Position numbers and translations under genes: made by a program. Shown here piece after piece: positions 33,632 through 36,846 of a stretch of 64,000 nt of DNA (positions are counted from its first letter, which is position 1; each line of letters starts with the position of its first letter). This DNA is from Comamonadaceae bacterium (GTDB lineage Bacteria > Pseudomonadota > Gammaproteobacteria > Burkholderiales > Burkholderiaceae_C), in NCBI GenBank assembly GCA_003599455.1, contig QZKF01000056.1, forward strand, positions 1 to 64,000. The letters run 5' to 3'. The notes beneath the pieces are model-generated. The model searched no databases, had not been told where the DNA came from, and saw only the letters and a program-made list of their open reading frames with translations.

Positions 33632-35017
33632 ATGCACATCCACATTCTGGGCATCTGCGGCACCTTCATGGGCGGCCTCGCCGCCCTGGCCCGCGAAGCC
33701 GGCCACCGCGTGACCGGCTGCGACGCCGGCGTCTACCCCCCCATGAGCGACCAGTTGCGCGCGCTCGGCATCGAGCTCATCGAAGGATTCGGCGCCGACC
33801 AGCTCGCGCTCAAGCCCGACATGTACGTGGTGGGCAACGTGGTCAGCCGCGCCCGCGCGGCCGACGGCACGCCGAAGTTTCCGCTGATGGAAGCCATCAT
33901 GGACAGCGGCGCGGCCTACACCAGCGGCCCGCAGTGGCTGGCCGAGCACGTGCTGCAGGGCCGGCACGTGCTGGCGGTGGCCGGCACCCATGGCAAGACC
34001 ACCACCACCGCCATGCTGACCTGGATCCTGGAAGCCAACGGCCTGCAGCCCGGCTTCCTGGTCGGCGGTGTGCCCATGAACTTCGGCGTCTCCGCCCGGC
34101 TGGGATCGGGCCACACCTTCACGATCGAAGCGGACGAATACGACACCGCCTTCTTCGACAAGCGCAGCAAGTTCGTGCACTACCGGCCGCGCACCGCGAT
34201 CCTGAACAACCTCGAGTTCGACCACGCCGACATCTTCGACGACCTGGCCGCCATCGAGCGCCAGTTCCACCACCTGATCCGCACCGTGCCGGGCAGCGGC
34301 CGCGTGGTGGTCAACGGCGTGGAAGAAAGCCTGGAGCGTGTGCTGCACAAGGGCCTGTGGAGCGAGCTGCGCAGCTTCGGCGCGGCGGTGAGCGACTTCA
34401 CCGCGCGCGGCGAGCCGCATGCCTTTGATGTGCTGCACCTTGGCCAGGCGGCCGGTCGGGTGGAGTGGGCGCTCACAGGCGTGCACAACCAGCTCAACGC
34501 CCTCGCAGCCATCGCCGCGGCCGAGCACGTGGGTGTGGCCCCGGCCGATGCCGCGCGCGCGCTCGCTGCATTCGAGAACGTGCGCCGGCGCATGGAGGTG
34601 CGCGGCACGGTCCAGCGCGCCGGTGGCGCCATCACCGTCTACGACGACTTCGCCCACCACCCCACGGCCATCCGCACCACGCTCGACGGCCTGCAGCGCC
34701 GGCTCGGCAGCCCGCGCGGCCGCATCCTGGCGGTGTTCGAGCCGCGCAGCAACACCATGAAGCTGGGCACCATGAAGTCGCAGCTGCCCTGGAGCCTGGA
34801 GGCCGCGGATCTCGCCTTCTGCCACGCGGGCGGACTGGACTGGGACGCCACCGAAGCACTGGCATCCATGGGCGCGCGGGCGCGGGTGGGCAGGAACATC
34901 GATGAGCTGGTGGCCCAGGTGAGCGCCGCCGCGCAAGCCGGCGACCACATCGTCTGCATGAGCAATGGCGGCTTCGGCGGCGTGCACGACCGCCTGCTCA
35001 AGGCTCTAGCCGCCTGA
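33632..35017 (+). CDS. mpl: UDP-N-acetylmuramate:L-alanyl-gamma-D-glutamyl-meso-diaminopimelate ligase
   Basis: Recycling ligase that joins the intact tripeptide from old peptidoglycan directly to UDP-MurNAc. 461 residues, typical for Mpl and distinct from MurC by the N terminus MHIHILGICGTFMGGLAALA and by HADIFDDLAAIERQFHHL. ATP P-loop [12 protein letters not shown] at about 118, C-terminal YDDFAHHPTAI and FEPRSNTMK. Complements AmpD at 21246. Convergent with the 106-residue hypothetical gene; a nested stem-loop repeat lies between them. Confidence 0.95.
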   Translation: MHIHILGICGTFMGGLAALAREAGHRVTGCDAGVYPPMSDQLRALGIELIEGFGADQLALKPDMYVVGNVVSRARAADGTPKFPLMEAIMDSGAAYTSGPQWLAEHVLQGRHVLAVAGTHGKTTTTAMLTWILEANGLQPGFLVGGVPMNFGVSARLGSGHTFTIEADEYDTAFFDKRSKFVHYRPRTAILNNLEFDHADIFDDLAAIERQFHHLIRTVPGSGRVVVNGVEESLERVLHKGLWSELRSFGAAVSDFTARGEPHAFDVLHLGQAAGRVEWALTGVHNQLNALAAIAAAEHVGVAPADAARALAAFENVRRRMEVRGTVQRAGGAITVYDDFAHHPTAIRTTLDGLQRRLGSPRGRILAVFEPRSNTMKLGTMKSQLPWSLEAADLAFCHAGGLDWDATEALASMGARARVGRNIDELVAQVSAAAQAGDHIVCMSNGGFGGVHDRLLKALAA

Positions 35018-35517: not shown

Positions 35518-36654
35518 TCAGCCACCGCGGGCCTTGCGCGCGGTCTGCACCGCACCCGACAACACGTCGAGCGCCTGCAGCGAATCGCCCCAGCCCAGGC
35601 AGGCGTCGGTGATGCTCTGGCCGTACTTGAGCGCACCCACCGCGTCCTTGCCCGGGGTGAACTTCTGCGCGCCGGCCTCGATGTGGCTCTCGATCATCAC
35701 ACCGAACACGCTGCGCGAGCCGCCGACGATCTGTGCCGCGATGTCGCGCGCCACGTCGAGCTGCTTCTCGTGCTGCTTGCTGCTGTTGGCGTGGCTGCAG
35801 TCCACCATCAGGCGCGGCGGCAGCTTGGCGGCCTCGAGTTCCTTCACCGACGCCGCCACGCTGGCCGCGTCGTAGTTGGGCGCCTTGCCGCCGCGCAGGA
35901 TCACGTGGCAGTCCTTGTTGCCGTTGGTCTGCACGATGGCAACCTGGCCGTTCTTGTGCACCGAGAGAAAGTGGTGGCCGCGCGAAGCGGCCTGGATGGC
36001 GTCGGTGGCGATCTTGATGTTGCCGTCGGTGCCGTTCTTGAAGCCGATCGGCGCCGACAGGCCTGAGGCCAGCTCGCGGTGCACCTGGCTCTCGGTGGTG
36101 CGCGCACCGATCGCGCCCCAGGCGATCAGGTCGCCGATGTACTGCGGCGAGATCACGTCGAGGAACTCGCTGCCCGCCGGCAGGCCCAGGCGGTTGATCT
36201 CGATCAGCAGCTGGCGCGCGATGCGCAGGCCTTCGTCGATGCGGAAGCTCTCGTCCAGGTAGGGGTCGTTGATCAGCCCCTTCCAGCCCACCGTGGTGCG
36301 CGGCTTCTCGAAATAGACGCGCATCACGATCTCCAGCGTGTCGGCGTACTTCTCGCGCAGCGGCTTGAGGCGGCGCGCGTAGTCCACCGCGGCCACCGGG
36401 TCGTGGATGGAGCAGGGCCCGATCACCACCAGCAGGCGGTCGTCCTTGCCGTGCAGGATGTCGTGGATGCGCTTTCGCGTCTTGCTGATGAGCGCCTCCA
36501 CCGGCGTGCCGCCAATAGGGAAGAAGCGGATCAGGTGTTCGGGAGGGGGCAGCACGGTGATGTCCTTGATGCGTTCGTCGTCGGTCTGACTGGTCTTGTC
36601 GACAGGACGGGCATGCCAGGCGTCGCTTGCGGCGGGGGCGTTTTTCGCGGTCAT
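35518..36654 (-). CDS. aroG: 3-deoxy-7-phosphoheptulonate (DAHP) synthase, class I
   Basis: First enzyme of the shikimate pathway: phosphoenolpyruvate plus erythrose 4-phosphate gives DAHP. 378 residues of the AroF/AroG/AroH type with VVIGPCSIHDPVAA, RVYFEKPRTTVGWKGLINDP and VDCSHANSSK carrying the metal and substrate ligands. About 25 residues precede the conserved core. The ATG at 36654 lies after a GGAG at 8-9 nt. Upstream on the same strand is a Phe-rich leader peptide and terminator hairpin, so it is probably the Phe-responsive isozyme controlled by attenuation. Confidence 0.95.
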   Translation of the reverse strand: MTAKNAPAASDAWHARPVDKTSQTDDERIKDITVLPPPEHLIRFFPIGGTPVEALISKTRKRIHDILHGKDDRLLVVIGPCSIHDPVAAVDYARRLKPLREKYADTLEIVMRVYFEKPRTTVGWKGLINDPYLDESFRIDEGLRIARQLLIEINRLGLPAGSEFLDVISPQYIGDLIAWGAIGARTTESQVHRELASGLSAPIGFKNGTDGNIKIATDAIQAASRGHHFLSVHKNGQVAIVQTNGNKDCHVILRGGKAPNYDAASVAASVKELEAAKLPPRLMVDCSHANSSKQHEKQLDVARDIAAQIVGGSRSVFGVMIESHIEAGAQKFTPGKDAVGALKYGQSITDACLGWGDSLQALDVLSGAVQTARKARGG

Positions 36655-36698
36655 CACGGGGCTCCTGAGTGGGGGTGGGATCGAAAAGCGGAAGGGCG

Positions 36699-36732
36699 AA
36701 AAAAAACCGCCGGGCTTGAGGCTCCGGCGGTT
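36699..36732 (-). terminator. Attenuator terminator before aroG
   Basis: On the minus strand AACCGCCGG (36732-36724) and CCGGCGGTT (36713-36705) form a perfect 9-bp stem around a 10-nt loop, followed by eight Us (36706-36699). It lies between the leader peptide and aroG, 45 nt before the start codon. Segment 3 of this stem can instead pair with CCGGCGG in the leader (36780-36774) to give an antiterminator. Confidence 0.9.
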
Positions 36733-36754
36733 TGATCGAGATTCGGTGATGCGC

Positions 36755-36829
36755 TTACAGCCTCGCCTCTCGTCCGCCGGGGACAGAGAACCAAAAATAA
36801 AAGGCAAAGAAGGCGAAGCGCGACAACAT
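36755..36829 (-). CDS. Aromatic-rich leader peptide of the aroG attenuator
   Basis: 24-codon frame starting ATG TTG TCG and reading M-L-S-R then FAFFAFYFWF: six Phe, one Tyr and one Trp in ten codons, then SVPGGREARL and TAA. The RNA segment over the first Phe codons (CTTCGCCT, 36818-36811) pairs with AGGCGAGG (36768-36761) near the leader stop, giving the 1:2 hairpin; stalling on Phe codons would free segment 2 (CCGGCGG) to pair with segment 3 of the terminator. This is the classical layout of pheA/trp-type attenuation. No Shine-Dalgarno sequence is seen; an extended -10 lies directly upstream. Confidence 0.85.
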   Translation of the reverse strand: MLSRFAFFAFYFWFSVPGGREARL

Positions 36830-36837
36830 GGGATCGA

Positions 36838-36846
36838 AATGTAGCA
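36838..36846 (-). promoter_or_regulatory. Extended -10 of the aroG leader
   Basis: Minus-strand TGCTACATT (36846-36838), an extended -10 whose hexamer ends 8 nt before the leader-peptide ATG, so the leader mRNA may be leaderless. It lies in the short gap after tldD. No clear -35. Confidence 0.45.

Follow-up and report, generated by a model that had tools for sequence, protein, structure and literature searches.

The locus analysed here raises the question of how a bacterium controls the gene whose enzyme opens the pathway to the aromatic amino acids. In its genome (assembly 95% complete), whose nearest named relatives are Hydrogenophaga, the models of TyrR (TIGR04381) and TrpR (TIGR01321) had no match, and both models matched E. 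coli, which served as a control. The genome encodes a single DAHP synthase of the class I type, aroG, which lies on the minus strand of the 64,000-nucleotide stretch of DNA analysed here as a whole (the window). The aroG product scores 534 bits against TIGR00034 (cut-off 173.2) and 539 bits against the AroG equivalog NF006723, which is under the cut-off of that model (568). The gene carries its own AGGAG at 36666–36662 (minus) and is convergent with a 461-aa open reading frame (ORF) at 33632–35017 on the plus strand, whose product resembles Mpl, the UDP-N-acetylmuramate tripeptide ligase. The region between tldD and aroG comprises the following features, given in the direction of transcription:

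36856, minus: end of tldD, the gene upstream of the leader ORF and aroG
36838–36846, minus: extended −10 box TGCTACATT (TGn + TACATT), the hexamer starting at −14 from the leader ATG
36829–36755, minus: leader peptide ORF, MLSRFAFFAFYFWFSVPGGREARL and stop, 24 codons, with ATG at 36829–36827 and TAA at 36757–36755
36788–36817, minus: control codons 5–14 (F A F F A F Y F W F), read from the sequence
36786–36790, minus: candidate segment 1, TTCTC, which pairs with GAGAG at 36771–36767 in the predicted fold
36774–36780, minus: segment 2, CCGGCGG, supported by 2:3 covariation
36768–36772, minus: CGAGA, outer arm of the putative antiterminator, pairing with TCTCG (fold and own-versus-swapped test)
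36737–36741, minus: TCTCG, outer arm of the putative antiterminator, pairing with CGAGA (fold and own-versus-swapped test)
36724–36733, minus: segment 3, AAACCGCCGG, supported by 2:3 and 3:4 covariation
36699–36713, minus: segment 4 and eight-U tail, the 3:4 terminator (CCGGCGG at 36713–36707, eight T at 36706–36699)
35518–36654, minus: aroG, class I DAHP synthase (TIGR00034 and PF00793), with its start at 36654

The sequence agrees with a preliminary description of this DNA in that the tldD–aroG gap contains a 24-codon frame on the minus strand with six Phe, one Tyr and one Trp within ten codons (codons 5–14), and that a terminator with eight Us (36713–36699) precedes aroG. A simple terminator scan did not list this terminator because its loop of 10 exceeds the limit of 8 used in the scan. 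The aromatic content of the frame is exceptional: the 64-kb window contains, over its two strands, 1415 short ORFs (start-codon-defined, 8–45 aa), of which the leader frame alone, entered with four nested starts, exceeds six aromatics in 12 codons, and two other ORFs have six. Across the leaders of related loci, the leader frame has a mean of 6.9 aromatics per 12 codons versus 2.6 and 2.4 in the other two frames of the same DNA, and the aromatic run varies synonymously (TTT 402, TTC 248, TAC 128, TAT 103). All three of Phe, Tyr and Trp are present in 101 of 140 distinct leaders. The leader and its codon content are thus established by comparison of sequences. Neither the leader peptide of the window nor a Burkholderia-type leader peptide belongs to an NCBIfam or Pfam family.

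We propose that aroG is, in all likelihood, controlled by a trp-type ribosome-mediated transcription attenuator, an interpretation that had been offered for this locus before and that is now supported by leader conservation and covariation. The leader and its RNA switch very probably turn aroG on when aromatic amino acids are scarce. We infer the following course for ribosome stalling and for termination in the cell, in which any of the three amino acids may count. The 24-codon leader would be translated behind RNA polymerase, and scarcity of charged tRNA-Phe (or -Tyr, or -Trp) would make the ribosome stall in codons 5–14. The stall would leave segment 2 free to pair with segment 3, forming an antiterminator that is extended by CGAGA/UCUCG and blocks the 3:4 terminator, so that aroG would be transcribed. 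With an ample supply of these amino acids, the ribosome would run over segment 2, or would leave the RNA with segment 2 folding back on the leader; in either case the 3:4 helix would form and transcription would halt before aroG.

The leader RNA has a better predicted fold than 199 of 200 shuffled sequences (z −2.75). When the RNA up to segment 3 was folded with a ribosome mask, the predicted probability of 2:3 pairing in the window leader was 0.00 without a ribosome; it rose to 0.97 when the A site was placed at codons 2–13, and was 0.82 at Phe14, 0.00 at codons 15–24, and 0.78 at the stop codon. According to these predictions, the Phe, Tyr, and Trp codons therefore all lie inside the permissive stretch. 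The predicted value at the stop codon would run counter to the simple scheme, so that termination in times of plenty would have to proceed via passage of codons 15–24 or via refolding after ribosome release. Among 152 leaders, the medians of the predicted 2:3 probability were 0.12 without a ribosome, 0.96 for the mean over the aromatic codons and 0.16 at the stop codon, and the best stall exceeded the stop codon in 149 of the 152 predicted foldings. The distance from the start of the last aromatic codon to GGCGG in these leaders has a median of 14 nt. A conserved GAGAGG that follows segment 2 was considered as an internal Shine-Dalgarno pause site and dropped: its anti-Shine-Dalgarno energy is −6.07 versus −6.11 for shuffled sequences, and is lower than shuffled in 60 of 152 leaders.

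The predicted 2:3 antiterminator and 3:4 terminator are conserved and covary in relatives, so that the refuting condition set in the preliminary description, a lack of conservation of these pairings, does not hold, and the terminator is present in 166 of 173 leaders. In an alignment of 64 sequences, segments 2 and 3 form 87.4% standard pairs versus 83.4% in shuffled columns, and 21 cells are changed on both sides versus 6.8, a number reached by none of 500 column shuffles; the respective values for segments 3 and 4 are 94.8% versus 91.5%, and 27 versus 7.9 cells, again reached by none of 500. Pairs that show a double change were not unusually numerous for 2:3 (63 of 500 shuffles), and the corresponding figure for 3:4 was 51 of 500. 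When partners were swapped among 158 distinct leaders, the own partners scored 21.0 versus 19.0 for 2:3 and 27.3 versus 23.9 for 3:4, with no swap out of 500 reaching the own value in either case. The same outcome was obtained for the outer helix of the antiterminator, which is CGAGA/UCUCG in the window: own partners beat swapped ones in all 500 trials. Furthermore, relative to the ORF, the GGCGG of segment 2 is found in each of the three frames (72, 61, and 7 of 140 distinct leaders), as expected if segment 2 is kept as RNA, not as peptide.

Few independent events underlie the covariation. A tree of 119 loci shows three changes of the segment-3 base that follows CCGCC, and each change is matched in segments 2 and 4. 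The states of segments 2/3/4 at this position are C/G/C in 80 loci, T/A/T in 16, A/T/A in 2, and G/C/G in 1, with a wobble combination T/G/C in 11 and mismatches in the remainder (A/G/C in 5, A/A/T in 3, and C/G/A in 1). The 2:3 pair is broken at this key position in some leaders (A.A in 3 and A.G in 5 of 119). An independent-pairs test on the tree found one pair only and had no power.

The 1:2 helix has a different standing. The segment 1 of the preliminary description, CTTCGCCT with AGGCGAGG, does pair in the window, but the pairing is shared by few close relatives only; the exact CTTCGCC/GGCGARG pair occurs in 7 of 147 leaders and is lineage-specific. The alternative helix TTCTC/GAGAG displays no covariation either in a free register (own partners 10.96 versus swapped 11.50), in a fixed register (9.29 versus 9.27, 240 of 500) or in column shuffles (233 of 500). 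It forms in the predicted fold, and it is retained as a candidate only because its complementarity of 9.29 exceeds the mean for shuffled letters, 8.30.

To what extent is the element tied to aroG? A related DAHP synthase was sought in the genus (67 genomes), the family (250), the order (300), and a collection of named genomes, and the upstream DNA was searched for an ORF with at least five aromatics in 12 codons. Conservation of the leader frame, the lack of which had been set beforehand as a refuting condition, was found by this ORF rule in 142 of 163 loci, including three doubtful ones that the RNA model does not match (L110, L133, and L134). Among the 21 misses, L016 and L077 have no upstream sequence, and L026, L084, L115, and L161 carry the element by the RNA model. 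In a further 60 loci of the order, the rule was passed by 31. The RNA model is a covariance model of 149 positions built from 64 diverse leaders. Of the 250 family genomes, 241 carry the element according to this model (219 of the 224 good-quality genomes; 137 of 141 genera), with one match per genome in 240 of them and two matches in one genome that also has two aroG copies. Among the 300 genomes of the order there are 80 with a match, and all 64 matches for which an aroG position is listed (it is not listed for 16 of the 80) immediately precede aroG in the same orientation, at a median of 43.5 nt from the first aligned aroG codon. In the class (370 genomes), all seven matches of at least 70 bits, four of them outside the order, are at DAHP synthase genes, and the 23 weaker loci that were inspected (34 bits or less) have no DAHP synthase within about 1.5 kb on either side.

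These comparisons establish the link to aroG. The next-best match in the genome of the window has 29 bits and covers the terminator portion only. Extra copies of the DAHP synthase gene in the genus (second or third ones, 20 in all), used as a negative control, gave no match to the model (0 of 20); by the ORF rule, two of these copies showed chance GTG frames with four and five aromatics. Named carriers include Ramlibacter, Polaromonas, Variovorax, Acidovorax, Limnohabitans, Comamonas, Rubrivivax, Burkholderia, Caballeronia, Massilia, Janthinobacterium, and Xanthomonas. The preliminary description had suggested a comparison across Comamonadaceae; the element is indeed conserved there, but its range is far wider than that family.

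Of 89 leaders classed as Comamonadaceae-like (aroG at least 78% identical), 84 have a TGnTAnnnT motif positioned such that its hexamer starts at −14 to −12 from the leader ATG, compared to 3 matches elsewhere between −60 and −9, and a C immediately precedes the leader ATG in 69 of the 89. No leader out of 162 has a Shine-Dalgarno match of at least five upstream of the leader ORF, and three have a match of four. At the aroG start, a match of at least five is present in 53 of 124 loci at the extrapolated start and in 75 of 124 if any nearby in-frame start is allowed. Because the −10 box abuts the ATG and a Shine-Dalgarno sequence is absent, we predict from sequence that transcription starts at or beside the A of the leader ATG in Comamonadaceae-like loci, giving a leaderless mRNA. 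The other 73 leaders have a TAnnnT starting at −15 to −12 in 26 cases, and leaders of the Burkholderia and Oxalobacteraceae types have boxes of the TATAAA or TTATAGT kind some 40 nt upstream, which would result in a short 5′ UTR, again without a Shine-Dalgarno sequence. Leaderless attenuators are known elsewhere. The ATG of trpL is the first codon of the RNA in S. meliloti (PMC7298713), and the leuL, trpL, ilvL, thrL, and metL leaders of Streptomyces lividans are leaderless ORFs (PMC8079986); both were mapped, whereas the start is predicted here, and the genes and phyla are other ones.

Three other explanations of the locus have to be weighed against attenuation. If the terminator served only to end tldD transcription, the aromatic ORF would be incidental, and tldD is indeed the upstream gene both here and in 88 of the 124 leader loci with enough upstream sequence. 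The 36 of 124 loci in which tldD is absent upstream refute this explanation. The element tracks aroG, not tldD; an ORF of such aromatic content is moreover unique in the window, and segment 2 covaries with the terminator. We consider it extremely improbable. A probability close to nil is assigned to a riboswitch that binds an aromatic metabolite: mutually exclusive helices do precede the terminator, but a conserved multi-helix aptamer is absent, the conserved parts being the start codon, the aromatic codons, and segments 2–4. Nor does any Rfam family reach its threshold. A search of Rfam release 15 with the leader returned four weak matches, all far under the gathering score and none of them an amino acid leader, and Phe_leader, Trp_leader, and the other Rfam leader families did not reach threshold.

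The remaining alternative combines constitutive termination with translational coupling or with a peptide or small RNA that acts in trans. Attenuator leader RNAs and peptides can act in this way, as described for S. meliloti peTrpL/rnTrpL (PMC7298713), and the aroG leader would release a short RNA. The C-terminal part of the peptide, however, shifts frame over GGCGG, which leaves the aromatic block as the sole portion conserved at the peptide level, and such a scheme has no use for the conservation of 2:3 pairing. In addition, the AGGAG of aroG lies outside the structure. We hold this alternative to be very unlikely.

The attenuator would provide a concrete regulator, open to direct tests, of entry into the aromatic amino acid pathway in a large bacterial group. 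We suggest, as a tentative extension, that it might be the main transcriptional control of the aromatic entry step in Comamonadaceae and several other families, where it would replace TyrR/TrpR, act as a pan-aromatic OR gate in which scarcity of any one of Phe, Tyr, and Trp halts the ribosome within a single permissive run of codons, and, in Comamonadaceae, be leaderless. The mixing of three control amino acids offers a way into multi-amino-acid sensing. The predicted leaderless ORF likewise offers a way into how leaderless initiation couples to attenuation: if the mRNA is leaderless, a 70S ribosome would load once the ATG emerges from the polymerase. As this compact and deeply conserved element is missing from Rfam release 15 and NCBIfam, annotation can be improved at once.

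Attenuators of the E. coli trpL/pheL type consist of a leader peptide, alternative 2:3 or 3:4 pairing and a U-tract terminator, and the aroG leader has the same parts. It differs from them in its target gene, in combining three amino acids in one leader, in having no Shine-Dalgarno sequence before the leader ORF, and in its unproven 1:2 helix. A close counterpart in terms of target is the aroR leader–aroF operon of C. glutamicum, reportedly the subject of work by Neshat et al. in 2014. The preliminary description called translation-coupled attenuation of this gene, with mixed aromatic codons, notable; in principle, control of a DAHP synthase gene by a Phe/Tyr leader has this precedent, in which a leader peptide with aromatic codons (Phe-Tyr-Phe) precedes the DAHP synthase gene, Phe limitation increases transcription and Tyr is without effect (PMC11802643). 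Likened by description, the two systems differ in that C. glutamicum is an actinobacterium, that aroR has three aromatic codons compared to about seven here, and that Phe alone acted there, with no mention of Trp in the passage (PMC11802643). Three amino acids are represented in the aroG leader. The pheL and pheST attenuators are described in the same source (PMC11802643).

Other DAHP synthase genes have been linked to attenuation as well. The predicted uORFC-13-1 motif upstream of aroF, whose 24 representatives come from Acholeplasma and from environmental sequences without an assignment, is similar by description in that a Phe-containing uORF and a terminator precede the gene, but it is characterised by at least one Phe codon and has an extra substructure (PMC8632094). 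Attenuation of E. coli aroF was hypothesised in 1980, and leaders of aroF/aroH were predicted in Shewanella (both as cited in PMC8632094 and PMC2659441); these are DAHP synthase genes with a proposed attenuator too, but in Gammaproteobacteria that have TyrR/TrpR, and the attenuators are proposed or predicted only. A description of a betaproteobacterial aroG attenuator was not found in open PubMed Central papers, subscription literature being outside the search. Given these precedents, the element appears to be a widespread addition to known DAHP synthase attenuation.

Several individual loci deviate from the common pattern. The leader of L084 (Comamonadaceae bacterium 2PF), MRTTVRYHFWHFHIQHLTGAGVANA, has His at several of the aromatic positions, and its element scores 75 bits. 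In L026 (G050, match at 2681–2834, minus), the element is intact (93 bits) and the leader frame, with an in-frame TAA just upstream, has no start codon; the missing ATG is either a loss or an assembly error, the genome being 80% complete. The element is absent from the named loci of Polynucleobacter (L090, L091, and L093), both loci of Cupriavidus (L092 and L098), and Thauera (L118). The three Polynucleobacter loci, and also L147–L149, are close aroG relatives (72–76% identity) without the attenuator, which was apparently lost or replaced in the Polynucleobacter lineage. Outside the order but within the class, L247–L250 place the element at DAHP synthase genes of two further families, with leaders (e.g. 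MNAARASFYFWYYFPKPLAEEGLRSP) that resemble the named Xanthomonas locus L136. Finally, a DAHP synthase gene of an uncultured Anaerolineae MAG (L133) is preceded by a different aromatic frame, which begins MSRYFSFFSWYGYFAAGQ, and by a strong hairpin that lacks a clear U tract; this upstream region is perhaps an independent attenuator.
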